From: a virus
IMG/VR virus record: IMGVR_UViG_3300027851_000089
Location: 1 to 31,111 of that record
Length of the DNA stretch: 31,111 nt
Reading direction: 5' to 3' (one strand)
The stretch's first letter is position 1, and each line of letters opens with the position of its first letter. Positions 14,717-31,029 of the stretch are shown piece after piece. The position numbers and the translations under genes were made by a program. A model generated the notes under the pieces. The model had not been told where the DNA came from and ran no database searches. It was given only the letters and a program-made list of their open reading frames with translations.

Positions 14717-15103
14717 ATGGCAAAGTACGCACACCCAGATGTTTTGGACCAAGGGCCAAACTTCATCAAAGTAAACTGCAACAAGGTCATCTGCACAAGC
14801 GCCTACACCTTTGGTGACAGTTACGCAACCGTAGTAGCAAATACCCTAGCCGAAGCCACAATGGCAAGTGGTGACTTCACGCTTGCCAGCGCGACCAATG
14901 ACCGAACACTGACCACAGCAGCAGGAAAGCAGGATGCGTCAGCAAATGCTACTGGTGCAGCAAGTCACTTCGCATTCGTTGACACAGTAAACTCCAAAGT
15001 TCTATGGGTTACTGAAGAAACTTCAGGACAAACAATCACGATAGGGAACCCTGTAACGTTCCCTTCGCTGGTGTACACTGCCAAGCAGCCTGTCGCTCCT
15101 TAA
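14717..15103 (+). CDS. Small virion-like protein, plus-strand module
   Basis: This is a 128-residue protein starting at the ATG at 14717 (MAKYAHPDVLDQGPNFIKVN), with GGAGA about 8 bases upstream; the longer open frame to 14573 has no such signal. The sequence is beta-rich with many Thr/Ala/Ser residues and no cysteine-rich or catalytic motif, similar in style to small phage head-decoration or fibre-attachment proteins. It is the first gene of a plus-strand block placed inside the minus-strand morphogenesis cluster, upstream of a long repetitive protein. Function is unknown; a structural role is inferred from context. Confidence 0.6.
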   Translation: MAKYAHPDVLDQGPNFIKVNCNKVICTSAYTFGDSYATVVANTLAEATMASGDFTLASATNDRTLTTAAGKQDASANATGAASHFAFVDTVNSKVLWVTEETSGQTITIGNPVTFPSLVYTAKQPVAP

Positions 15104-15120
15104 TTTGATGTGACATGTAA

Positions 15121-15148
15121 CGTGCAGGCAACGCCCCCTGCACGCTTT
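15121..15148 (+). terminator. Hairpin between the first two plus-strand genes
   Basis: CGTGCAGG pairs with CCTGCACG around an 8-base loop and is followed by CTTT. It may act as a partial terminator or attenuator that reduces read-through into the long repeat gene. The U-run is short. Confidence 0.5.
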
Positions 15149-15174
15149 AGGCTGGGCGTCAGAAAGAGTCTTAT

Positions 15175-17421
15175 GTGGCAATCTCGTATGTAGGCGGAAA
15201 AGGCGCAGGCGCGGCCGGGCAGGGCGGTGGGTCCATCAGCCTCACCACCGGCCTCACTGGCGGCAGCGGCGGCGCGCCCATCGAGGGCGACCTGGTGGTC
15301 GTCACCGTCAGTGTGGGCACGGCAGCGCGTGCGCCCACCATCGCCATCAGTACGCCCAGCGGCTACACCCCGCTGACGGCGCAGCGCACCACCGCCACCA
15401 CCTACGACACCAACGTCCAGACCTGCTACAAGGTCATGGGCAGCACGCCCGACACCACGGTCACCATTCCCGCGTCGGGCAACAACGCGGATGGCATCAG
15501 CTACGCGATTCAGGTTTTCCGAGGCGTGAATCAGACCACGCCGATGGATGCCACGCCCACCTACGCGACGGGCAGCGGAACGAACAGTCGGCCAGACCCT
15601 GCGGCCATCACGCCAGTCACGGCTGGCGCATGGATTGTGGTGTGTGGTGGTGGCGCGGCTGCAACGGGAGCGGCGTACACGGCGGCTTACCTCACCAACC
15701 TCATCACCAACTCAGGGCCGGACACCAACGACTCCTTGATTGGTTGCGGGTACTTCACCGGCTGGGTGTCGGGTGCGTACAACCCGGCAGTGTTCGGTGG
15801 CGGCAGTGCAACAGCCAACGATTCTTGGGGTGCGACAACGCTGGCCTTACGGCCCGCTCCCACTGTCACGATACTTACCGGCGACAGCAGCCGGACAAAC
15901 CACACCAGCACGAACGGCAGTGTAAGTTCTGCACACACTGTAACGGGCAACAGCGCCGGGGAAAACACCACCTCGACCTCTGGGGCGGTGGCGCAGACGC
16001 ACCTGCTCAGTGGCAACTCGGCTGTAACGAATCCGACAAGTACCCACGGTGCGGTGACTTTGCCGCCTCCACCGGTAGTGTTGACAGGTAACTCTGCACG
16101 GTCGAATAACACTTCGACTGCTGGGGCGGTGTTGCAGAACTATCTGTTGGCTGGCAACTCGGCACGGTCAAATAATACTGCAACTTCTGGAAGTGTGACG
16201 CAGACTCACACTCTGGCCGGTAACTCCGCACAATCAAACAACACCGCCACATCAGCGGCTGTTGCCCAGCTGCATACCTTGACCGGTAACTCTGCACGGT
16301 CGGACAACACGGCAAGTTCTGGTGCGCTGCTGCAGACTGTCGTGCTGACCGGTAACTCTGCACGGTCGAGCAACACAGCAAGTTCTGGTCCAGCCACCCA
16401 GGCTCATGCGCTGACGGGTGAGACTTCCCGGTCGGACAACACGGCAAGTTCTGGTGTTGTCGCTCAGGCCCATTCCCTGATCGGTAGTGTGTCTGAAAGC
16501 CGTGCAGCCAGTACAGCTGGTGCAGCGATACAGAACAGCTTGTTGACTGGCAACTCTGTTGCGCAGCACAATACCTCGACCACGGACAGTGCAGCGCAGA
16601 CCCACACCTTGTCTGGTAACTCTGTTGCGCAACCTAACACCAGCACCTCTCAAGGCGTGGTCTCGGAAGGTGTACTGTCCGGTAATGCTGTTGCGCAACC
16701 GAACACAGCAAGTTATGGAAGTGTCTCTCAGAGGCATTTGCTGGCAGGTGCAAATTCTGTACAAAACAGTACCGCGAGTGTCGGGTCGGTATCCGCAGAG
16801 AGCCAGCTGACCGGCACCAGTGTCAGCAGCCAGCCTACCAGCACCTCGGGCACGGTCGCACAGACCCATCTGTTGACCGGCGCAAGCACCGTCACCGGCC
16901 ACACAACCACCAGCGGCGCAGCAGCGCAGATCGTCACACACGAACTGACCGGCGAAGGCGCCAGCGCCCCTACAAGCTCGTCCAGCGGCGCGGCAATGCA
17001 GACGCACTCTCTGGTGGGCAAAGACGCACTGCAGGCCACGCTCAGCGGCGCGGCAGCGGTCGCCCAGGCTCATGTGCTGACCGGCGCGGGCGTGGCCGTC
17101 GATCACGTGGCCGCGTCCAGCCCGGTCGTGCAAGTTCACATCCTGATGGGTGAGGGTGCTGCCCAGGCCAACCGCAGCGGCACAGGTTCGGTGTACTTTT
17201 TCCCACCGGTACAGCTTACAGGTGCCAACTGTGCGCAGACGAACACCAGCACAGCAGCGAGAGCAGAAACCTATGAACCTACACCTTGGCACATTCGCAG
17301 GTTGATCGTTCCATTCAGAAATCGCACATTAGATGTGCTAGACTCTTCACGACAAATGTACGTGACAGAAAACGCACGTACGTTACGTATAGCCTATAGA
17401 AACAGAAAGGTCTTCAAATGA
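15175..17421 (+). CDS. Repetitive virion surface / fibre-like protein (21 x 22-residue repeats)
   Basis: This 748-residue protein starts at GTG 15175, with an AAAGAG sequence about 8 bases upstream; the nearby ATG at 15173 is out of frame. Residues 1 to about 230 form a Gly/Thr-rich beta-sandwich-like head with IEGDLVVVTVSVGT, an AIQVFRGV motif and GAWIVVCGGGA. Residues about 232-700 are 21 successive 22-residue repeats with the consensus LTGNSARSNNTASSGAVAQ-T-H. The end (PWHIRRLIVPFRNRTLDVLD, then ENARTLRIAYRNRKVFK) carries two 'NRTL.V/ARTL.I' strands often found near the end of small phage surface proteins. Its TGA overlaps the next ATG (ATGA). I infer a trimeric fibre, decoration or adhesin; it has no signal peptide. 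GC content is higher at both ends than in the middle repeats. Confidence 0.75.
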   Translation: MAISYVGGKGAGAAGQGGGSISLTTGLTGGSGGAPIEGDLVVVTVSVGTAARAPTIAISTPSGYTPLTAQRTTATTYDTNVQTCYKVMGSTPDTTVTIPASGNNADGISYAIQVFRGVNQTTPMDATPTYATGSGTNSRPDPAAITPVTAGAWIVVCGGGAAATGAAYTAAYLTNLITNSGPDTNDSLIGCGYFTGWVSGAYNPAVFGGGSATANDSWGATTLALRPAPTVTILTGDSSRTNHTSTNGSVSSAHTVTGNSAGENTTSTSGAVAQTHLLSGNSAVTNPTSTHGAVTLPPPPVVLTGNSARSNNTSTAGAVLQNYLLAGNSARSNNTATSGSVTQTHTLAGNSAQSNNTATSAAVAQLHTLTGNSARSDNTASSGALLQTVVLTGNSARSSNTASSGPATQAHALTGETSRSDNTASSGVVAQAHSLIGSVSESRAASTAGAAIQNSLLTGNSVAQHNTSTTDSAAQTHTLSGNSVAQPNTSTSQGVVSEGVLSGNAVAQPNTASYGSVSQRHLLAGANSVQNSTASVGSVSAESQLTGTSVSSQPTSTSGTVAQTHLLTGASTVTGHTTTSGAAAQIVTHELTGEGASAPTSSSSGAAMQTHSLVGKDALQATLSGAAAVAQAHVLTGAGVAVDHVAASSPVVQVHILMGEGAAQANRSGTGSVYFFPPVQLTGANCAQTNTSTAARAETYEPTPWHIRRLIVPFRNRTLDVLDSSRQMYVTENARTLRIAYRNRKVFK
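15868..17270 (+). repeat. 21 in-frame repeats of 66 bp
   Basis: Units begin with codons for L(T/S/A)GNS and end with (A/V)AQTH(T/L). The best-conserved copies lie between about 16070 and 16480, where DNA identity is visibly higher; copies toward the 3' end are diverged. The arrangement suits recombination-driven change in copy number. Confidence 0.9.
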
Positions 17422-17720
17422 TCTACACCCGACCAGATGGCCTCGAAGGTACACCGCACTCTCCAGGCGCGGCTCTTGACTACTACTTCAACTGGCGGCG
17501 CTGGTTGCAAGGTTCTGGCATCGTGTCTTCCACGTGGCAGGTGACTGCGCCTTTGTCTGTGTCCAGCGAAGCAATCGTTGGCACATACGAAACCAGTGTG
17601 GTAGTATCTGGCCCCGCAGTCCTTGGTGCTGAGTACACGCTGATGAATACCATCACGACGACTGACGTACCACCGCGAATTGAGACTCGCGTCTTGATAC
17701 TTGAGTGCAGGTACCAGTAA
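17418..17720 (+). CDS. Small phage virion-associated protein
   Basis: This 100-residue protein overlaps the repeat gene by four bases (ATGA), so the two are translationally coupled. It reads MIYTRPDGLEGTPHSPGAAL and then DYYFNWRRWLQGSGIVSSTW. The pattern 'DY..DW..WL..G..I.SS.W' is shared by many small beta-sandwich proteins encoded next to phage head-fibre genes. A perfect palindromic terminator follows. It likely binds or anchors the repeat protein. Exact function unknown. Confidence 0.68.
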   Translation: MIYTRPDGLEGTPHSPGAALDYYFNWRRWLQGSGIVSSTWQVTAPLSVSSEAIVGTYETSVVVSGPAVLGAEYTLMNTITTTDVPPRIETRVLILECRYQ

Positions 17721-21489: not shown

Positions 21490-22410
21490 AGTGGTCATTC
21501 CGTGTTTGGGGGCATTATCAGCCAGGAATTCGGTGGCAACAATGCCTGCTGTTGCAGAAACACCAAAATTGACGGGAGTGCGTGCCACAAGCTTGGTATT
21601 GGAGGCTGCGTAGGCAAGTGCCTCGGTGTAGTTACCCAAGGCGTCGATCAAGCCTGCCTCCAGGCCACGCTTGCCGATGAACTCGCGTCCTTGCCCCATC
21701 ACTTGATCTGCGATCATGGTAGTGGTGTTACGGTTCTCTGCCACTACACCGACGAAACCCTCGTACATGTCGTTCAACTGCAGCTGAATTTCTGCCTTGG
21801 CTTCCTCACTCAGCGGCTCATACGGGTTCGCCAGCATCTTGTAACGCCCAGCACGCATCACCGTGGTAGTGATGCCTTCACGCTCTTCCATTTTGCTGTA
21901 CTCACGGTGAATTCGAATCACACCAATCGAACCCGTCACCGCAGTCTCACTGGCAATGAGGTAGGGCGCATTGCTAAAGAGCCAGTAGCCAGCACTTGCT
22001 GCCAAGTCGGTGTAGCCCGTCATGGGTTTGGCCTGAGCAAGTGCTTTCAGGATGCTTGCACACTGGTTGCAACCTGCCACACTGCCCCCAGGAGAGGCCA
22101 CAGCCAACAGCAAACGTGGCGCTTGACGGTCGCCAGCGGCCAATGCAGCCGCTTGTGCGATGTCATCGTAGCCGATGATGCCCCAGGCGCGAAAGAACGG
22201 GCCGGTGTAGCCGCTCACGAGGTGGCCGCTGATTTTCAGGACACCGACTGCGCCGTCACGTTCGTACAGGTCTTCAAACGTGTCCTCTGGCTCGTCCGTA
22301 TCGGCCTTGGCTTCGAAAGCCGTGACGGCCTTTTGCAGCGTGGCTTGAAAGTCGGCGTAAGATTGTTGGCTACCGAACCACAGGTTTGGATTGACTTCGA
22401 ATTTAAGCAT
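20914..22410 (-). CDS. S49 head maturation protease fused to scaffold (lambda gpC/Nu3-like)
   Basis: The 498-residue start at 22410 (MLKFEVNPNLWFGSQQSYAD) is preceded by AAAGGAAATTCAA; the longer open frame to 22602 is not supported. Residues about 55-265 form an S49 (SppA/ClpP-fold) peptidase with VASPGGSVAG, the nucleophile region DLAASAGYW (Ser139) and ETAVTGSIGV. The catalytic-lysine region is AGRYKMLANPYEPLSEE (Lys191). Residues 308-498 are a separate Ala/Gln-rich, coiled-coil-forming domain that resembles a scaffold. In lambda such scaffolds are also made alone from an internal start. The gene overlaps the portal stop by 8 bases. It processes the procapsid and directs capsid assembly. 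Confidence 0.88.
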   Translation of the reverse strand: MLKFEVNPNLWFGSQQSYADFQATLQKAVTAFEAKADTDEPEDTFEDLYERDGAVGVLKISGHLVSGYTGPFFRAWGIIGYDDIAQAAALAAGDRQAPRLLLAVASPGGSVAGCNQCASILKALAQAKPMTGYTDLAASAGYWLFSNAPYLIASETAVTGSIGVIRIHREYSKMEEREGITTTVMRAGRYKMLANPYEPLSEEAKAEIQLQLNDMYEGFVGVVAENRNTTTMIADQVMGQGREFIGKRGLEAGLIDALGNYTEALAYAASNTKLVARTPVNFGVSATAGIVATEFLADNAPKHGMTTMALKKTFTPEQIAAIAAGASIDAETQAALAEQTGGDDDSTDSSVAAEASQENVGAQATTQNDNEIVAFLKTELSAAQTALAQANLQASAAASQVAALQEVQASLVGIVQASTKNLAVALSRSVEVDKMDAKALVESHAELDAAFKAAFKPGKVAATTASTEKPEVKADPVVKQVAAIADPLFAFKTQTLKK

Positions 22411-23953
22411 TTGAATTTCCTTTAGGCTGTGCCGGTGTGTTGGGTGCAATATTGTCGGGCGCACCGCCCATATTGCCGGTCTGACTGACGTTGTTGCCGT
22501 TCTCCGCTTGGGTCGATGTACCACCCATGAACATCGTACCAGCCAGCGGCACGTGGCCGTCACGTGGCAGGTGGCCCGTAAGTTCGATGCTGGCTTCTTC
22601 ATCGGTGATGAAGCCCAGGCTCAACTGCTGCAGGATGCGGCTTTGCTTCATCGACTTGTAGGCTTCCAACTCGTTCTGTGGGCGCAAGTCCAAGTCTTCG
22701 TAGCGAAACTCCACGTGGCAGTCTTGTGCCAGCAAGCGTACTGCCACAGTCAGCGCACGACTGTACAGCACATTCAACTTGCGACGCACAATGTCAGCGT
22801 TCTTCAAGAACAGCATCGTACTGGTCGTCGCAGCGCTGCTATTGCCATCACGCCCCAGAATCGCAGGCATGGTCTTGGCACCGGCAGCAAGCTTGCTCTC
22901 CAGAATCTTCAGCACAGTCTGCATCGTATCGGCAATGTTGCCGTTGCTGCTGCCATTTGTGCCAAGCAAGCTGTACTGCACGCTGTCAAAGCTCACCAAA
23001 GCGTCTTCTGGCTGGATGTTCGACAGCTGCTGCGTGATGCCTGCAATCAGCGTGTTATAGAACTCGCCCAACTTTACCGGGTCGTTGCTGATGTCTGGAC
23101 TGACGCTAGACTTGATCTTCTCTTCAATGATCGTTGCCGTCAAACGCGGCTGAATCACACGCTGCATGGAGCGGCGCACATCGTTCAGGAACTGTGCGTC
23201 GGCAATCACGCTTTGTATTGCCGACTCAAAGTAACTGGTGCTGTACGCATTGAGCAAGTCTTGGTCGATGCTTACGTAGAAGAAAGTCGGGATGTCAAGC
23301 TTTCGCTCTTGACCGCCGATGATCTGTACCGGGTACACGCCAGTGTCTTCTTCCTTGAACACCAACTTGGTGACACTCACTGCCTGCAAGAACGTGGGCA
23401 GGCGTTGCTTGTCCAGTGCAAGTTCCAGACCTGCACTGCCGTAGGCTAACATTTCCTGACCCAGCGACTCTGACAGCGATTGTAGGTCAGTGACAGGGTT
23501 GTAGCCCAGAGTCGGGTCGCCCAGGTAGGTGACTCGGCGCAGAATTTCGTGAGCAAGTTTCGTGGCCTCCACGTTGATCGCCCCATCGGGGTCGCGTGCC
23601 ACGATGGTGTACTTCTCAGGTATGCCGACCCGTAGGTAGCTTTTCGTCGTTGCGCTCAGGTCTGGACTGGCCGCGATGTAGCTGCGCATGATGGCGCGGC
23701 TGTCTGCGCCTGCCCGCAGCGTGGTCGTGTCGGTGTTGGCCAGCCGTGCGTCGGGTCGCTGCAGGTTTGCCGTGGACTTGGCAACCTGCGTCTTCCAGCT
23801 TTGCAGCGCGGTGGGCTTATTGGGCGCTTTGCCAGGAGGCACAGACGGCAGCTGCCCCGGTCCTGCCTGGGTGCGGTTGAATAGGCGGTCGAAGAAGCTC
23901 ATAGCAGCGGATTCTCCCACGGTTTGCGGGTTTGTGGTGTTACGTTCGGCCAT
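22403..23953 (-). CDS. Portal protein
   Basis: This 516-residue protein lies between large terminase and the head protease, which is the portal position. Recognisable parts are MSFFDRLFNR near the N-terminus, SADLSATTKSYLRVGIPEKY-like sequence at about 95-115 and LGQEMLAYGSAGLELALDKQ, the 'G.a.le' core of portal wings. QRVIQPRLTATIIEEKIKSS follows, and near the end LSLGFITDEEASIELTGHLP, a portal C-terminal signature. It forms the dodecameric DNA gate and nucleates procapsid assembly. The start at 23953 overlaps the terminase stop; MSFFDRLF at 23902 has a GGGAG upstream and is a possible alternative. Confidence 0.88.
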   Translation of the reverse strand: MAERNTTNPQTVGESAAMSFFDRLFNRTQAGPGQLPSVPPGKAPNKPTALQSWKTQVAKSTANLQRPDARLANTDTTTLRAGADSRAIMRSYIAASPDLSATTKSYLRVGIPEKYTIVARDPDGAINVEATKLAHEILRRVTYLGDPTLGYNPVTDLQSLSESLGQEMLAYGSAGLELALDKQRLPTFLQAVSVTKLVFKEEDTGVYPVQIIGGQERKLDIPTFFYVSIDQDLLNAYSTSYFESAIQSVIADAQFLNDVRRSMQRVIQPRLTATIIEEKIKSSVSPDISNDPVKLGEFYNTLIAGITQQLSNIQPEDALVSFDSVQYSLLGTNGSSNGNIADTMQTVLKILESKLAAGAKTMPAILGRDGNSSAATTSTMLFLKNADIVRRKLNVLYSRALTVAVRLLAQDCHVEFRYEDLDLRPQNELEAYKSMKQSRILQQLSLGFITDEEASIELTGHLPRDGHVPLAGTMFMGGTSTQAENGNNVSQTGNMGGAPDNIAPNTPAQPKGNSNA

Positions 23954-25634
23954 AAGTGCCGTATTTGGGCGCTTGCGCGATGCTTATGAGTGGCACCCCA
24001 GCACTCAGACTACCAACACCACCGACTGTAAACCGCAGCTTTGCAGCTATCCACAGGTACAGCGTTGCAAAGTGCATGTGATCGTTCTCTTGTCCGGTTT
24101 TCTCCCAGATGTATGCAAGTTCTCCTTTGTCAGTGAACTTCTGCACACGCTTAAGGCTCAGCATCTGGTCTTTGTAGTAGGTGTCCAGATCGCTTGACTG
24201 AATGGCCCAAGTTCCGGCTTTAATGACACCAAGCAAGGTGTCTAGCGCGATGGTGCGATTGACCTTTACCAATCGCATTGCCATTTTGCCTTCTTCTGGG
24301 TTTTCTTCTTCCTCTTCAGTCGTAAACGGCGTGGGCTTTTTCGTGTTCACGAACATTGCACCCCAATTGTTTGGCCGTGCTTTGCAGATTCGCGTGACCA
24401 AGTCCGTGTAGGGTTGGCTGTCGTGGACCGCTACCACGACTCGGTACTCGGCAGCAAGCTCTAGCGTGCGCTTCTCATACTGCGTGTAGTGGCAAGTTTC
24501 CCGATGCACGATTACGAACGTGCCCTGGCTCTCTCGCCCGATCATGATGTGGCAAGTTAGACCTAAGTCTCCACCCATCACGTGAAATTCGCTGGACTTG
24601 AGGTCGGAGCGAACCGTTGCGCGTTCGATGTCGCTGGCAAGGATTGCTTCGTCTTTCTCTTCTCCTGTCAAACCGAGCGCCTGGTTCTTAAATTCGCTGT
24701 ATCGCTCGTACTTTGTGCTGGTGTCGATCAAGTAAGGGACAGAAATAATGGTCGGAACACTGAAGGGTGTGATGTAAAAGGCGTGTGCCTCGTGGTTTTC
24801 GTGTGCGTTTTCGCACACAAACTCCATTCTGGAGGCGTGCAAGTTGGGATTTCTGCCGCATTTTGGGCACCGCAACTCAGCTTCTTTCCACCGAATCGTG
24901 TGGATATTTCGCTTTGTAATCTCTTCCAGAGGCTTGTTGTAGCCTGGAATGTGTACATGTTCGAAGTAATCCGGCATAAAAAGGTGGTTGCAGCAGTCAC
25001 ATTTGTGTATCTGACGGAACCTTTTCGCAGTTTCTGCCTCTTTACTCACCCCATATTTGTCAATTGTGGGCGTGCTGAAGATTTTTCGCAGCTTGTGTGG
25101 TTTGTTTTGCAAGCGGGAGATATAGACCGATGTCTGTGTGATGTCGGACTTGTCGAATTCGTCGTGAATCAGGCAGTTGGCAGGCGTAGACAGGGCTTGG
25201 GTGTCGGATTTCGTACCCTTGAAGAACAGGAAGCTGTTTCGTCCGAACTGCTTCATCTCGCTGTTGTTCATGTTGGGGTTTACCAGACGTTTTACCTCTG
25301 GTGATGCCTCAATCATGGGGTCAATACGGGTCCGGTTATTTTTCTCTGCATCGGAAGAACTCGGGAAGGTGTAGATGACCGTGAAGTCGTCTTGAGTGCA
25401 GCACAAGGCCACCGCGTAGCGGTACGAAAGCTCGGATACGCCCACCTGAGCTGGTTTTACGGTGATGGTGGTGTTGGCTTCGTCGCGCAGGATGGCAAGC
25501 TGGTATTCGTAGCTTCGGAAGGAGTACCGTCGATTGTTGATGTACGTGTTTTTGCTTATCCAAGGGTCAAGCGTAGTGATGCCGTAGACGTTTTTTACGC
25601 CGTCTTTCACCCGTTGCAAGTGGTCTACGATCAT
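23940..25634 (-). CDS. terL: Terminase large subunit (lambda GpA type)
   Basis: This is a 564-residue DNA-packaging ATPase and nuclease. The Walker A-like motif is KPAQVGVSE (about residues 60-68), a deviant P-loop seen in the GpA family. Walker B is CLIHDEFD (154-161), and the coupling motif is FSTPT (186-190). A zinc-type knuckle follows: CDCC at 212-215 and CPKC at 256-259, as in GpA proteins. The nuclease domain has GGDLGL (Asp356) and VAVHDSQP (Asp405). It is coupled to the upstream small gene (ATGA overlap at 25631-25634). All key motifs look intact. It works with the small subunit at the portal. Confidence 0.95.
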   Translation of the reverse strand: MIVDHLQRVKDGVKNVYGITTLDPWISKNTYINNRRYSFRSYEYQLAILRDEANTTITVKPAQVGVSELSYRYAVALCCTQDDFTVIYTFPSSSDAEKNNRTRIDPMIEASPEVKRLVNPNMNNSEMKQFGRNSFLFFKGTKSDTQALSTPANCLIHDEFDKSDITQTSVYISRLQNKPHKLRKIFSTPTIDKYGVSKEAETAKRFRQIHKCDCCNHLFMPDYFEHVHIPGYNKPLEEITKRNIHTIRWKEAELRCPKCGRNPNLHASRMEFVCENAHENHEAHAFYITPFSVPTIISVPYLIDTSTKYERYSEFKNQALGLTGEEKDEAILASDIERATVRSDLKSSEFHVMGGDLGLTCHIMIGRESQGTFVIVHRETCHYTQYEKRTLELAAEYRVVVAVHDSQPYTDLVTRICKARPNNWGAMFVNTKKPTPFTTEEEEENPEEGKMAMRLVKVNRTIALDTLLGVIKAGTWAIQSSDLDTYYKDQMLSLKRVQKFTDKGELAYIWEKTGQENDHMHFATLYLWIAAKLRFTVGGVGSLSAGVPLISIAQAPKYGTYGRT

Positions 25635-25981
25635 TTGAGGGCTTGCTCATACTCTTCGAAGAACTGGCGTTGAACGTCTTCGGGTTGGTTTTTCATGGTA
25701 GCGATGATAGCCGCTTCGATTTTCTTGACCATTTCGGCGTCGTAAAGCTCGGTCTGCATCTTCACAATCTCTTTGAGAATGCTGTTGATGGTGTTCATCA
25801 CCTGTGCTACTTGGTTGGGCAGCACTTCTGAGTCGTAGCGAATCTCTTCAAGGTAGCTTTTCGCAGCCTCGTAGTTGGCAAGCAGTTCTCCGTCAAGGTT
25901 TAGCTGTTTGAGTTCCGTCAACTGGCTCTGTGGAACTGCTGGTGGGACGTATTCGTCCTTGAGTGAGAGGTCATCGAGCAT
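25631..25981 (-). CDS. Probable terminase small subunit
   Basis: I choose the ATG at 25981 (MLDDLSLKDEYVPPAVPQSQ), which has GGGA seven bases ahead; longer forms begin at 25987 or at a TTG. The 116-residue product is largely helical, with QLTELKQLNLDGELLANYEA, then a region ending VLPNQVAQVMNTINSILKEI and VKMQTELYDAEMVKKIEAAI. This 'NQKAQV.NT..S.L.ELVK.Q..LY.AE' pattern is familiar from proteins encoded directly before large terminase genes. Small terminases recognise the packaging site and stimulate the motor. Assignment is by position and this pattern. Confidence 0.65.
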   Translation of the reverse strand: MLDDLSLKDEYVPPAVPQSQLTELKQLNLDGELLANYEAAKSYLEEIRYDSEVLPNQVAQVMNTINSILKEIVKMQTELYDAEMVKKIEAAIIATMKNQPEDVQRQFFEEYEQALK

Positions 25982-26171
25982 TGTCATTTCCCAAGACAAA
26001 TTCGAACATGGCTTTCGCTTGTTCGTGGGTGAGCAGGTTTGTTCCTGTGGGCCAGCTGTGACTGTCTGGGTTTTGGTGTTCGTGAGGTTTGAAGCTGATA
26101 CCTGCGTCTGGGTAGAAGTCTTTCGGTAGCTTCCAGGCCATGAAGATGGTTGCCATTTCGTCTGTGGTCAT
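25971..26171 (-). CDS. Small phage protein of unknown function
   Basis: This 66-residue protein reads MTTDEMATIFMAWKLPKDFY, then PDAGISFKP and a C-terminal THEQAKAMFEFVLG. A 'WKLP.DF.PDAGI.F' core occurs in many small proteins of proteobacterial phages, without a known role. AGAGG precedes the ATG, which overlaps the previous stop (ATGA). Its 3' end overlaps the start region of the next gene. It belongs to the packaging transcription unit. Confidence 0.7.
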   Translation of the reverse strand: MTTDEMATIFMAWKLPKDFYPDAGISFKPHEHQNPDSHSWPTGTNLLTHEQAKAMFEFVLGNDNAR

Positions 26172-26461
26172 TTCTGAGCCTCTCGGTATTGTCGTCTGAT
26201 GCGGTCGGCAGTGGCTGCGCTGACGTTGGCAAGCCTCTGGATTTCTTTCGGTGGCAAGTTGCCTAGGCTCATGCGGAAGGCCTTTCGTGCGTCAAGCAGC
26301 GCCGTCTTGTTCTTGGGCTGGCGCACACGTGGCGGGCGTTTGATGGCGCGGCGTATGGCGACAGCGTGGTAGCCGGTCGCGTCGGCAAGCTCTTGGCTGG
26401 TGATTTCCCAGGCGAGGAACTGCGCCAGGAGCGGCTTGGGGATGGCGTCGATGATCTTCAT
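26168..26461 (-). CDS. Small double helix-turn-helix DNA-binding protein
   Basis: This 97-residue basic protein has two helix-turn-helix patterns: ITSQELADATGYHAVAIRRA (about residues 20-39) and LPPKEIQRLANVSAATADRI (about 69-88). The middle is rich in Lys/Arg/Pro (KRPPRVRQPKNK). As the first gene of the packaging and head operon, it could be a transcription regulator of the late genes or the DNA-recognition part of a small terminase; the repeats just upstream (26480-26559) are candidate targets. The ribosome-binding site is poor, so the start is less certain. Confidence 0.7.
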   Translation of the reverse strand: MKIIDAIPKPLLAQFLAWEITSQELADATGYHAVAIRRAIKRPPRVRQPKNKTALLDARKAFRMSLGNLPPKEIQRLANVSAATADRIRRQYREAQK

Positions 26462-26479
26462 GAGCGCCGACTGTAGCAG

Positions 26480-26581
26480 GATAGGCCTCAGCTATCAAGT
26501 GCCTCGTAGCAATAGGGGTGGCGGCTATCGGAGGCTGGGGCTTGATAGGCCACGGCTATTGGGTGGTTGCATCACGTGATG
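26480..26581. promoter_or_regulatory. Operator- or cos-like repeats upstream of the packaging operon
   Basis: GATAGGCC-NNN-GCTAT occurs twice in direct orientation (26480-26495 and 26544-26559, 64 bp apart). CTATCAAG/CTTGATAG forms an 8-bp inverted pair (26492-26499 and 26541-26548). A 12-bp palindrome, CATCACGTGATG, lies at 26570-26581. They sit immediately before the HTH gene and the terminase genes, a place where binding sites for a regulator or terminase are expected. The role is inference. Confidence 0.5.
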
Positions 26582-26746
26582 TAACAGCAAAGTTCAGAAA
26601 AGTTGTAGCGATGGCGAACACAGGAGAAGGCTGCAGCCGGCCGTTTCATAGGTGAAACCCTATACGTCACCGGCCAAGTTATCCACAAAGTTATCCACAA
26701 CCCCTACCTGTGGATAACTACATGAGCAGGTGTTAATAACCTTCAG

Positions 26747-26766
26747 TGTAGGGTAGTTACCCCACA
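26747..26766. promoter_or_regulatory. Imperfect 20-bp palindrome inside the DnaA-box region
   Basis: TGTAGGGTA and TACCCCACA flank a 2-bp centre with one mismatch between arms. It lies in the gap between the two groups of DnaA boxes and could bind a phage regulator or initiator. Confidence 0.4.
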
Positions 26767-26880
26767 ATGTAGCGCTTCACTGGCGCCGATCTGGTGCGTT
26801 CTAGAGGCATGTATGTCCATACAGTATCGACGCTTATCCACAACTTATCCACAACCTTATCCACAGAGTTATCCACAGAC

Positions 26881-26892
26881 TCTTATATAAGA
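26881..26892. promoter_or_regulatory. TCTTATATAAGA palindrome, copy 1
   Basis: This 12-bp perfect palindrome lies between DnaA boxes. The same sequence, within a shared 15-base word ACTCTTATATAAGAC, recurs at 30894-30905. Two exact copies 4 kb apart in an otherwise dissimilar context suggest a common protein-binding site or promoter element. Confidence 0.5.
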
Positions 26893-26920
26893 CTGAGTTA
26901 TCCACACCCCTGTGGATAAC

Positions 26921-26949
26921 AATAAATCACACAATAGCGTGTTTGTCAA
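26921..26949 (-). promoter_or_regulatory. Candidate leftward promoter next to the LexA box
   Basis: On the minus strand a perfect TTGACA (26949-26944) is followed after 17 bp by TTTATT (26926-26921), a weak -10 match. The LexA box starts directly upstream of the -35. If used, it would transcribe toward the DnaA boxes and the packaging genes. Confidence 0.35.
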
Positions 26950-26969
26950 TACTGTGCATACATACAGTA
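26950..26969. promoter_or_regulatory. LexA (SOS) box
   Basis: TACTGTGCATACATACAGTA matches the proteobacterial LexA consensus TACTGT-N8-ACAGTA at all conserved positions. A second, weaker ATGT-N8-ACAG site lies near 26810-26827. It indicates that some transcription in this arm is induced by DNA damage in the host. Confidence 0.75.
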
Positions 26970-27014
26970 AACGCTACTGCATAGCATGGAAAACAGAACC
27001 CAGAAAATAGACAC

Positions 27015-27044
27015 TAGACACAGCAGAAAATACTGTGCTATACT
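27015..27044 (+). promoter_or_regulatory. Sigma70-type promoter for the right-arm transcript
   Basis: TAGACA (27015-27020), an 18-bp spacer and an extended -10 TGCTATACT (TATACT at 27039-27044) give a strong plus-strand promoter. Transcription would start near 27051 and first pass two small hairpins (GTGCA/TGCAC near 27051-27066 and ATGCACC/GGTGCAT near 27072-27090) before the ORF at 27139. Confidence 0.65.
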
Positions 27045-27138
27045 GGCGCCGTGCATATCGCTGCACAGACAATGCACCAAAATGGTGCATACACCAAAAA
27101 CCCGCGCCGCTATATAGGCGCAACTCTGAAAGCCTCAA

Positions 27139-27804
27139 ATGCAAAACGCAACCGCAACCGCAACCGCAACCGCAACCGCAACCCGCGCCGCCCGTTCTAT
27201 GGTGCATGTTCGTGCCATGTTCCCCGATTGCTTCACCTTGTCAATTCTTGACGCGGTAACGTCAATCTACGACAAGGGCGCCGCCCTTGAGGTTCTGGCC
27301 CGCGCCATTGTAGGCGCCGCCCTTGAGTTTGGGCATAGTGGAAATGATGCCCGCGTGAAGCAATCCCGCGAAGCCTTGCAAGGCAAAGGGAAAGGCGCAC
27401 AAGTCCGCGCCCGCGCCGTTCTGGCGCTTGACGCTGTGCGCGATAGCCTCAAGGCGCGGGAACTGTGCGCCCTTGACGATGGCGCCTTGATTGAGTGGGC
27501 CAGCATGGCCCATGCCCGCGCCGTTGACGCGTTGACGCCACCCGCCCGCGCCGCGAAACCCGCAACCGCAACCGATGGCGCAACCGCAACCGCAACCGAT
27601 GGCGCAACCGCAACCGATGGCGCAACCGATGGCGCAACCGATGGCGCAACCGATGGCGCAACCGCGCCGCAACCGCTGCCCACCGTGCCCGATGTTTCCT
27701 TGATTGTCGCCGCAATCAAGGCGGGCGCATACGATGGCGCAGCCCTTGAGGCCATCATGGGCGCAATCGCAACCGCAACCGCAACCGCAACCGCAACCGC
27801 ATAA
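27139..27804 (+). CDS. Low-complexity Ala/Thr/Asp-repeat protein of unknown function
   Basis: This open frame of 221 residues follows the promoter at 27015. The ends are Thr-Ala runs encoded by GCAACC hexamer tracts, and the middle has an (DGAT)n run. Between them, residues about 28-130 look like ordinary helical protein (FPDCFTLSILDAVTSIYDKG, then LEVLARAIVGAALEFG and VRARAVLALDAVRDSLKARE). I see no good ribosome-binding site; GCC ATG inside the frame near 27197 and 27215 are alternative starts. Because low-complexity DNA keeps several frames open, coding is plausible but not certain. No family recognised. Slippage in the hexamers would change length in whole codons pairs, not the frame. Confidence 0.45.
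   Translation: MQNATATATATATATRAARSMVHVRAMFPDCFTLSILDAVTSIYDKGAALEVLARAIVGAALEFGHSGNDARVKQSREALQGKGKGAQVRARAVLALDAVRDSLKARELCALDDGALIEWASMAHARAVDALTPPARAAKPATATDGATATATDGATATDGATDGATDGATDGATAPQPLPTVPDVSLIVAAIKAGAYDGAALEAIMGAIATATATATATA
27146..27804 (+). repeat. GCAACC hexamer tracts and GATGGCGCAACC repeats
   Basis: Three simple-repeat blocks are present: about six GCAACC units at 27148-27183, a mixed block of GCAACC and the 12-mer GATGGCGCAACC at 27570-27663, and about six GCAACC units at 27775-27800. They bracket and interrupt the 221-codon frame. Such tracts are prone to slippage and may drive length variation. Confidence 0.9.
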
Positions 27805-27987: not shown

Positions 27988-28130
27988 CAACCGCGCCCGC
28001 TAGGGCAGACGCTAGGGCAGACGCTAGGGCAGACGCTAGGGCAGACGCTAGGGCAGACGCTAGGGCAGACGCTAGGGCAGACGCTAGGGCAGACGCTAGG
28101 GCAGACGCTAGGGCAGACAGTGCGCGGTTG
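27988..28130. repeat. Ten exact 12-bp tandem repeats enclosed by a 9-bp inverted repeat
   Basis: The unit GCTAGGGCAGAC is repeated ten times without a single change from 27999 to 28118. The array is bracketed by CAACCGCGC (27988-27996) and its complement GCGCGGTTG (28122-28130). As DNA, spacing near one helical turn is iteron- or centromere-like. As RNA, the flanks would close a large loop displaying ten copies. It also keeps open frames on both strands (ADAR repeats on plus, ASAL repeats on minus). Confidence 0.95.
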
Positions 28131-28138
28131 TAGAAACT

Positions 28139-28378
28139 ATGGGAAAGCAAAACCAAAAACCGATAATGACGAAACCCGCGCCGCTACATGCCGCGCCCGT
28201 TGACTCATTGTCCGATAATCAGGCTTTGCGGAACCATAGCGGAAAACTTATCGGGCACATACGCGCCACCCGCTACCCTTTGCGGCATGGCGCACCACAC
28301 ATTACAAAATCACGTTATTCGGGCCGGTTGCCCGTCGCACGTAGTACGGCATTATTTGTCAATGGCTCTATCGGTTAG
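28139..28378 (+). CDS. Doubtful small ORF after the tandem array
   Basis: This 79-residue frame starts MGKQNQKPIMTKPAPLHAAP and contains LRNHSGKLIGHIRATRYPLR and HITKSRYSGRLPVARSTALF. The composition is protein-like and basic in its second half. There is no recognisable ribosome-binding sequence and no family match that I know. An overlapping frame in another phase (28188-28568) is also open, so coding here remains uncertain. Confidence 0.33.
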   Translation: MGKQNQKPIMTKPAPLHAAPVDSLSDNQALRNHSGKLIGHIRATRYPLRHGAPHITKSRYSGRLPVARSTALFVNGSIG

Positions 28379-28389
28379 CGCCCGGTATC

Positions 28390-29090
28390 CTATGGCTGTC
28401 TTGCGGGAAAGTGCAAAATATCGTTGCGTGATGTGTGGCCCCGACAGTGGACAAATACTAGGCTTGCGGAACACGCCTAGTATCCGTGGCGTATGCGAAC
28501 AGGTTAACCCCACATGCATACTCGCCCACCAATTACATTTAGCATCCCTGCAAGCGTTTCTTGTGTAGGATAGGTCGGAGACTGTGACCCTTATTCGCTA
28601 GGATATTGGGTAGTCGCCCTTGAAATACGACCCTAGAAACGCCCCTGCATATGCTTGAACAGCAGCAAGTTTCGAGGATACTTCCGCAGTATCGTCGATC
28701 ACACTTGCGGGCTATGCCAGCGACTCACACCACACGCAAGGTTATGCTTTGCGCGTTTGGCTCAATGGCAGCGTTGACCACGATGTAATCTCAAGCGATC
28801 AGCCGAACTGTCCGTGATCTGACAAATCACGTTAATCTACGCCCTGAAACCGTGGCGAGTAACGGTTAAGTCCTTGCGGATATGTGACATATCCGTGGCA
28901 ACTGCCCCTAGAATCGCAGTCACGACCCGTCAGCGTGGAATACTGACTCAACCCTTAACTGTTCTTACGCCTAGACGCTAAATAAGGCTACTTGCGGGTC
29001 CAGCAAGTCTGTTCACACTAAGGCGCTGAATGTGCGCTGAAACATTCAAACACAACATATCGGGCAGTCGATGCCCAATCTCATAGCATG
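28390..29090 (+). ncRNA. Candidate large structured RNA
   Basis: From about 28390 to 29090 there is no convincing coding frame, but there are hairpins along the whole length. Examples are ATACTAGGC/GCCTAGTAT (28455-28483), GATACT/AGTATC (28677-28692), CGCAA/TTGCG (28735-28752) and CGTGAT/ATCACG (28813-28830). AACCG/CGGTT (28848-28867), GGATAT/ATATCC (28878-28894), GTCAG/CTGAC, ACTTGC/GCAAGT (28990-29008), GAATGT/ACATTC and GGGCA/TGCCC complete the series. The word CTTGCGG recurs five times, twice in the module CTTGCGGA-N-TATCCGTGGC. A 23S-like segment is embedded. Phage-borne large RNAs such as GOLLD and ROOL are of similar size, but I cannot assign this one to either. Ends are approximate. 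Confidence 0.5.
28562..28634 (+). ncRNA. Segment resembling 23S rRNA helices 75-79 (L1-stalk base)
   Basis: TGTGTAGGATAGGT, then CGGAGACTGTGA and, 36 bases later, AGTCGCCCTTGAAATACGACC match bacterial 23S rRNA (TGTGTAGGATAGGTGGGAG... and ...GCCCTTGAAATACCACC, about E. coli 2090-2200, from memory). The rRNA pair GGTGG/CCACC appears here as GGTCG (28573-28577) and CGACC (28628-28632): both sides changed and pairing kept. GACT/AGTC and ACCC/GGGT continue the stem. The distal stalk that binds protein L1 is replaced by a 17-base loop. The rest of domain V is not recognisable. Confidence 0.6.
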
Positions 29091-29092
29091 GA

Positions 29093-29148
29093 TGCGGCCT
29101 AAGCAAGTCTTAGGCCGCAAACTTAAGCAACACCAATGCTTAAGTTTG
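29093..29148. promoter_or_regulatory. Two adjacent strong hairpins before the small-gene pair
   Basis: TGCGGCCTAAG/CTTAGGCCGCA (29093-29119) and CAAACTTAAGCA/TGCTTAAGTTTG (29118-29148) stand back to back. They lie just upstream of the ribosome-binding site of the gene at 29172. They could end the structured RNA, mark a processing site, or shield the 5' end of the downstream message. No U-run follows. Confidence 0.6.
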
Positions 29149-29171
29149 CCCACCACTCTGAAAGGAAAATC

Positions 29172-30482: not shown

Positions 30483-31029
30483 TCTAGCGCTCAACTTCCG
30501 AAAAAACAGGTGTCATTTTTTCTGCCAAATCTGCCAAATCCACGGCAAGCTGAAACAAAAAAGGCCTAAGCAAGGTTTATGCCTGATTGACCACAATCTC
30601 AACATGGGATTGACGCCTAATTTTTAAGCAAACGAACAAAATCAAGCACTTAGCAAGTTTTTAGGTCAACAGTGAATATGGGTTAAGTTCAAAAAGTACC
30701 CCAAGTTTTGTTTTTGAGTAGTGTATGAAAAGCCTTCTCTAGAGCCCACTTTTTACGCTCAAAACACCTCTTCTAGCGACGCGTTTTTTTACACCCTCTT
30801 TACCCCCACCCCCCTATTTTTTCAAAACCGTAAACCGGGTATCACTGTCTGTGTAAAACCGCGCTAACTTGTTGATTCTTATGGGAAAAGCACTCTTATA
30901 TAAGACCGCCTTTTTTGTAAGACTGTATACAAAAATTTCCCCGGCCAAAACAGCTAAAACCGACCACCACCTAATCCAGTCGCTCTTAACCCCCACCCAA
31001 TCAAAAACCGTATTTACCCTCTTGACAAA
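30483..31029. other. Long non-coding stretch, A/T-rich with C-runs
   Basis: No credible gene is present. The minus-strand frame 30814-31083 has no ribosome-binding site and looks fortuitous. Items seen: a TGCCAAATC direct repeat (near 30522-30541), homopolymer-rich pyrimidine tracts (30780-30825), the second TCTTATATAAGA palindrome (30894-30905), and the word AAAACCG repeated several times between 30825 and 31012. It may be regulatory; nothing is decisive. Confidence 0.5.
30894..30905. promoter_or_regulatory. TCTTATATAAGA palindrome, copy 2
   Basis: Second exact copy of the 12-bp palindrome found at 26881 inside the DnaA-box cluster, with the same flanking bases (ACTCTTATATAAGAC). It is a candidate shared operator or promoter element. 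Confidence 0.5.

Follow-up and report, generated by a model that had tools for sequence, protein, structure and literature searches.

The locus described here raises the question of what a dense cluster of DnaA boxes does in a phage genome, and of whose proteins read it. Origins that depend on DnaA are known from chromosomes (oriC) and from plasmids, such as oriR of P1 and oriV of RK2. The window, by which we mean the whole stretch of DNA that was analysed, is an IMG/VR virus record of 31,111 bases that is classed as linear and is probably a genome fragment. An exact-match scan of the whole window confirmed the nine perfect DnaA boxes that a sequence-only reading had placed in 26679-26919, all of them exact copies of TTATCCACA, and found no further TTATCCACA or TTATNCACA beyond the array in the 31,111 bases (Table 1). 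The count of TTATNCACA was 9, compared with a mean of 0.66 and a maximum of 3 in 100 shuffles, and among the 1680 rearrangements of the box letters TTATCCACA was found nine times, the runner-up three times and the mean was 0.13; both controls thus place the cluster beyond chance. Four of the boxes had been described as phased at one helical turn. The four are indeed in tandem, and the phasing is approximate, since their starts are 11, 12 and 12 bp apart. Where one inverted pair had been claimed, two close pairs were found, 26898/26911 and 26691/26709, the latter with 11-bp arms and a 9-nt gap. Triple tandem DnaA boxes are not unique to the window phage, because they were detected in at least 120 viral contigs, compared with one for the reversed motif.

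The array is located inside a divergent gap (26462-27138), with leftward packaging and structural genes on one side and rightward early genes on the other. On the minus strand to the left, a 97-aa HTH protein, possibly the small terminase, is followed by two small ORFs, the large terminase (TerL), the portal protein and then mostly leftward genes; on the plus strand to the right are small genes without a named family. No Rfam family and no tRNA were found in the window. Expandable low-complexity repeats, namely CGCAAC hexamers and ten 12-bp CGCTAGGGCAGA units, are located within and after the first early gene (27139-27804 and 27998-28118), and other repeats occupy a roughly equivalent place in two relatives (L122 1-170 and the start of L142). 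A 135-bp tandem repeat (8954-9447; 3.7 copies, 95% match) lies within a 2712-aa ORF that is probably the tape measure, the leftward structural block encloses three plus-strand ORFs at 14717-17720, of which one has 66-bp repeats, and about 1 kb at 28134-29171 is without a gene from the codon-based caller.

Table 1 Features of the control region and neighbouring genes in the window.
Feature	Position	Strand	Remark
Exact DnaA boxes	26679, 26691, 26709, 26834, 26845, 26857, 26869, 26898, 26911	+, +, -, +, +, +, +, +, -	exact TTATCCACA
Left group, three exact DnaA boxes	26679..26717	++-	place, order and orientation conserved in L130
Four tandem exact DnaA boxes	26834..26877	+	starts 11-12 bp apart; conserved in L130, where one of the four is TTATGCACA
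Inverted pair of exact DnaA boxes	26898..26919	26898+, 26911-	10-bp arms, 4-nt gap
AT-rich palindrome TCTTATATAAGA, SdhR operator core	26881..26892		inside the array, DnaA boxes on both sides
Second TCTTATATAAGA	30894..30905		intergenic, upstream of an ORF truncated at the contig end; without a neighbouring DnaA box
Easiest-melting 50 bp of the control region, candidate unwinding element	26853..26902		overlaps boxes and operator
LexA-type box TACTGTGCATACATACAGTA	26950..26969		CTGT-N8-ACAG at 26952
Inverted repeat TGTATGTCCATACA, putative regulator site	26810..26823		one base differs in L130; close to a LexA-type box
Sigma-70-like promoter candidate TAGACA-18-TATACT, toward early genes	27015..27044	+	weak: 2 found, 1.0 expected
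97-aa HTH protein, first leftward gene	26168..26461	-	weak HTH_23 match under cut-off; homologues in relatives
116-aa conserved ORF adjoining TerL	25631..25981	-	
Large terminase subunit	23940..25634	-	phrog_675
Portal protein	22403..23953	-	phrog_3753
First rightward ORF, 221 aa, Ala/Thr repeats	27139..27804	+	no family match

To see how the array is maintained, we compared the window with its relatives. This group, family A, comprises the window, relatives identified by TerL (L121, L122, L123, L141, L142 and L143; 61-69% identity) and further members found by motif (L126, L127, L130 and L135); L126 and L127 are the same in the compared part, and L123 and L141 end before the gap. Nine family-A loci apparently cover the gap, the window counted, of which seven have at least two boxes in it; the other two, L142 and L143, lack an exact box. 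The TerL of L130 is identical to that of the window in 420 of 566 aligned columns (74%), and the third codon positions in 281 of 564 (50%). All nine boxes are nevertheless found in L130 in the same place and orientation, with an offset of 20316 for eight and 20317 for the ninth. Box bases are identical at 80 of 81 positions, the only change giving TTATGCACA, which still satisfies the consensus, and spacer bases at 135 of 160 (84%). Because boxes, spacing and spacers are kept while TerL third positions stand at 50%, the whole ordered region is under selection. A long perfect inverted repeat with DnaA boxes inside, possibly a cruciform, was observed in L122 (~1380-1440). No box cluster was seen in JWF, Seuss and SHOU24 within the stretches examined.

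Two elements of the control region had been absent from the sequence-only reading, an SdhR-type operator nested in the array and a LexA-type box. The composite of DnaA box and operator recurs widely in viruses. An operator followed by a DnaA box within 30 bp was found in 18 viral contigs and, in a collection of 84,980 genomes of bacteria and archaea, in 10 stretches, of which five are from Hoeflea. A DnaA box followed by an operator within 30 bp was found in at least 119 viral contigs and in one of 399 genomes of the presumed host order, which is the order of a betaproteobacterial MAG. Taking both orders, at least 136 distinct viral contigs besides the window carry the composite, with L130 in both lists; they belong to several terminase lineages and include relatives of two isolates. 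Three contigs in the 18-contig list (L129, L133 and L134), which have a single box apiece and share nothing else, are probably chance hits, and so, it seems, is L216 of the 119-contig list; all four were retained in the counts and in a set of 62 non-redundant composites, which was obtained from 139 sites with an anchored 75% identity cut. Among these 62, 48 have a box no more than 45 bp to the left of the operator and 37 have an inverted box no more than 45 bp to its right, and the common box offsets around the operator are -17, -18, -39 and +8, +9, +30. Most composites have 1-3 exact boxes within 300 bp (96/119 loci). The operator 12-mer was present in 20 of 20 composite records, with one copy in 18, two in the window and four in an 86-kb relative (G001). 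TCTTATAYAAGA was absent from the 120 triple-box loci (0 near, 0 far), which indicates that the operator is confined to one phage group and is not a property of DnaA arrays generally. The locus sequence of L122 has a DnaA array without the operator.

The flanks of the composite in the 119 loci hold a terminase on one side and, on the opposite side, a T7-type primase-helicase or family-A polymerase, with transcription leading away from the composite. The terminase type was recognised in 47 of these loci (41 T7-like, 3 family B, 2 P26059A-like and 1 family A). No significant mutual similarity (BLASTP, E 0.065 or worse) was found between the terminases of the window family, family B, the T7-like group and phage P26059A, the last taken from the record's own annotation; the terminase of L131 is a relative of the T7-like group. 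The composite is also present in two isolates. The 76-kb Limnohabitans phage DC31 has all five of its exact boxes and its single operator within ~120 bp, and in Curvibacter phage P26059A the operator is accompanied by one exact box and one TTATGCACA. By inference only, the host of the window phage is Comamonadaceae-like, because these two phages carry the composite. Sequence queries with the window region and an L125 region returned no isolate with the composite, and near matches to the array in microviruses were short repeats. The sole composite among the 399 host-order genomes (L339 1501-1526, in genome G072) is located in the promoter region of an atpI-atpB-like operon, and its 26 bp, comprising DnaA box and operator, are identical to window 26869-26894. 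Two 36-kb phage contigs, G004 and G007, have end repeats of 221 and 127 bp and end inside dense DnaA arrays.

The LexA-type site of the window fits the LexA consensus, CTGT-N8-ACAG. Such boxes were counted 28 times in 70 kb near the composite, compared with 19 times in 1.0 Mb elsewhere, and 24 of the 119 loci have one within 300 bp of the composite. Their distribution differs between lineages: all seven family-B loci have a LexA-type box within 400 bp, and two of nine family-A loci have one, the window and L135 only. In the 120 triple-box loci overall they were unremarkable (1 near, 6 far). Family B also encodes a stand-alone 83-aa LexA DNA-binding domain adjoining the large terminase gene (L138 1966-2217 and homologues).

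Which DnaA would read the array? The Bac_DnaA_C domain was detected in none of 36 distinct phage records (two sets of 20, with G000-G003 in both), in a search that covered the window as a fragment only and whose control was positive in 10 of 14 genomes. Because no DnaA gene was found in the 36 phage records, host DnaA is the likely ligand, and the array is most likely a site for it. The earlier suggestion of a host-DnaA-dependent origin is thus upheld as to the host DnaA site, with exact boxes kept under divergence and no phage Bac_DnaA_C; the origin itself is possible. Plasmid-like replication, which had been suggested along with it, was unsupported, as the 86-kb relative has its own DNA polymerase, primase and helicase, and also a ribonucleotide reductase and a ParB-like protein.

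We propose, with belief and doubt about evenly balanced, that the array is the core of a central control region, origin plus promoter, which reads host DnaA and a metabolic regulator. The proposal builds on the observed sites, their conservation and recurrence, the host context of the operator and the lack of a recognisable phage DnaA or SdhR in the searched records; protein binding, the origin role and the sign of the SdhR effect are predicted by it. Host DnaA would assemble on the ordered box array in a control region between divergent early and late gene blocks, and the operator matching the host TCA-cycle regulator SdhR would sit in the easiest-melting stretch of the array. DnaA would open or remodel the region, upon which phage replication, early transcription or both would begin, and operator-bound SdhR would hinder the DnaA-driven opening. 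Such a switch would depend on the replication capacity (DnaA) and the carbon metabolism (SdhR) of the host, and the LexA-type site in the window and some relatives would be an added DNA-damage input. DnaA and the regulator at the operator may work against or with each other, and their target may be the start of replication, the flanking promoters, or both. Several observations count against the proposal: the GC skew of the isolates, the family-A loci and other phages without a box cluster, the single exact box (plus one variant) of P26059A, the L122 array that lacks the operator, the mostly incomplete SdhR half-sites in viruses, and the tandem gaps that hold the composites of DC31 and P26059A. 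A more specific version is put forward tentatively: in a widespread class of freshwater phages with Comamonadaceae-like hosts, host DnaA may oligomerise around an SdhR operator, often with a LexA site, and start replication or the lytic program, so that infection would be gated by the carbon flux, replication state and DNA damage of the host, with no regulator encoded by the phage.

Evidence on the origin was sought in melting and in GC skew. The 50 bp that melt most easily in the control region have a nearest-neighbour energy of 58.6, in the lowest 0.13% of the 50-bp windows of the contig, with four other places lower. GC skew, which had been recommended as a check for an origin, follows gene direction and not the array in both composite isolates: it turns at a gene-direction switch at 35.1 kb in DC31 and at 56.0 kb in P26059A, with no clear turn at the composites at 20.2 kb and 72.4 kb. 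In the window, G001, G004 and G007 the skew does turn at or near the array, confounded by the divergent genes and with opposite signs, namely a minimum in G004 and G007 and a maximum in G001. GC skew was therefore dropped as origin evidence, given the sign in G001 and the lack of a turn at the composite in the two isolates. The isolates' skew, without an origin signal at the composite, would suit a region that is only a transcription switch, where DnaA, SdhR and LexA act on flanking promoters and replication starts elsewhere. This explanation, which we regard as possible though doubtful, also agrees with the SdhR-type and LexA-type sites being transcription-factor sites, with the placement of composites (69 in divergent gaps, 9 tandem, 2 intragenic and 39 at contig ends, so that divergent gaps hold 69 of the 80 not at contig ends), and with DnaA footprints near the lambda pO promoter, as reported in PMC3985674. 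However, a promoter should need less than nine exact, spacing-conserved boxes and an easy-melting core, and the composites of DC31 and P26059A are located in tandem, not divergent, gene gaps.

The metabolic half of an origin-plus-promoter region depends on the identity of the palindrome. The name SdhR is based on the consensus in PMC4494728, the one paper in which a full-text search located the 13-mer extension of TCTTATATAAGA; according to that source, SdhR belongs to the HutC subfamily and its site is TCTTATGTCTTATATAAGACATAAGA. Both window copies of the core TCTTATATAAGA are exact, at 26881 and 30894, and the extended half-site TCTTATG / CATAAGA is absent, the window flanks being GAC / CTGAG. 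In the host order, 44 of 80 genomes contain the 12-mer, with 78 copies in sum compared with 6 of the reversed control. Eleven of 14 host loci with the 12-mer adjoin a gntR-, malate dehydrogenase- or isocitrate lyase-like gene (L178 and L179 overlap; L181, L185 and L187 are without such neighbours). Pfam searches on five of the neighbour products identified three GntR+UTRA proteins, one malate dehydrogenase and one isocitrate lyase, and the remaining neighbour genes were recognised by eye. None of 20 phage records that were searched had a GntR domain over the cut-off. The palindrome matches the core of the operator of the host GntR/HutC regulator SdhR and may be read as that operator.

It is unlikely, in our estimate, that a regulator other than SdhR reads the palindrome or that the palindrome is a melting element, the DnaA array being real in either case. 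The full extended half-site in only 5 of the 62 non-redundant viral sites, compared with 6 of 13 host sites, speaks for another reader, but the flanks beyond the 12-mer fit the host site, with G before in 38, C after in 49 and either in 60 of the 62, and the published SdhR palindrome is present in L121. A melting element would agree with the position of the palindrome within the easiest-melting part, yet does not require a palindrome, and operator copies at 23-bp spacing in G001 and L143 count against both. The same spacing (L143 ~2560-2619, with no exact DnaA box, and G001 81974-82054) is why an iteron was considered; a phage iteron or mere melting element was down-weighted, as host copies of TCTTATATAAGA lie at sdhR-, mdh- and aceA-like genes.

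A DnaA sink had also been suggested, in which the boxes would titrate host DnaA and block host initiation. With nine high-affinity boxes per genome and tens of phage copies, the sites would outnumber the DnaA monomers of E. coli, for which PMC5835720 gives roughly 200 per origin. The number would suffice, yet the boxes keep their order, orientation and spacing, and the spacers 84% of their bases, at 50% third-position identity, whereas datA-like titration implies free spacing with number alone, and the 1-3 exact boxes in most composites are few for a sink, which makes this role very improbable. Hardly credible at all is a packaging (pac/cos) site adjoining the small terminase gene. The array does precede terminase genes in the window family and family B, but in P26059A some 12 kb, counted across the ends of the record, separate the composite from the terminase gene, the DC31 composite lies among small hypothetical genes, and we know of no packaging role for DnaA boxes. 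The generalisation that arrays always precede terminase genes, drawn from 34 loci by single-linkage protein clustering, failed a stricter test, in which a terminase was recognised in 30 of 120 loci, 12 of these within 1.5 kb with the 5' end of the gene facing the array, and the array was just 3' of a small-terminase gene in 11. An array preceding the terminase is a feature of some lineages only. In L011, L028, L048, L062 and seven other loci, the distance between the array and the 3' end of a small terminase gene of the Sf6-like kind is 9-28 bp.

Compared with DnaA-dependent origins, the window array shares clustered exact boxes, both tandem and inverted, beside an AT-rich stretch, and differs in its location in a phage divergent early/late region, in the SdhR-type operator mid-array and in a putative origin role. 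Lambda likewise places host DnaA at a phage replication control region, which is predicted for the window; as described in PMC3985674, lambda has two DnaA-box-like sequences near pO and its own initiator O, whereas here the exact boxes number up to nine, a metabolic operator is added and no phage initiator was identified. Cyanophages with PhoB/pho boxes also carry operators of a host physiological regulator and read the nutrient state of the host, but these boxes drive individual genes (PMC10976474), while here each genome usually has one operator, placed inside a DnaA array. The core GTCTTATATAAGAC palindrome is shared with the bacterial SdhR operator (PMC4494728), though bacterial sites often have extended half-sites, and 398 of 399 genomes lack a DnaA box within 30 bp of the motif in the one order searched. 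For Pseudomonas phage vB_PseuGesM_254, DnaA boxes were also proposed as part of a phage origin; this was an Ori-Finder prediction in a single phage, and the available text of PMC11512268 does not mention a metabolic operator.

Host DnaA near a phage control region (lambda) and host nutrient-regulator sites in phages (cyanophage pho boxes) are thus known already. A DnaA array that encloses a TCA-cycle operator and recurs in several phage lineages appears new: our literature search found neither such a composite in print nor a paper linking SdhR with phage, and the main text of the papers on isolates DC31 and P26059A contains none of the terms DnaA, origin of replication, replication origin, skew, intergenic and promoter. 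The element can be tested now, because two cultured phage-host pairs carry it. These results suggest that phages may time replication or gene expression by host state. If true, phages would tie a central switch to the replication licensing and the central metabolism of the host via 2-3 reused host regulators, which would bear on when lytic lake phages replicate.
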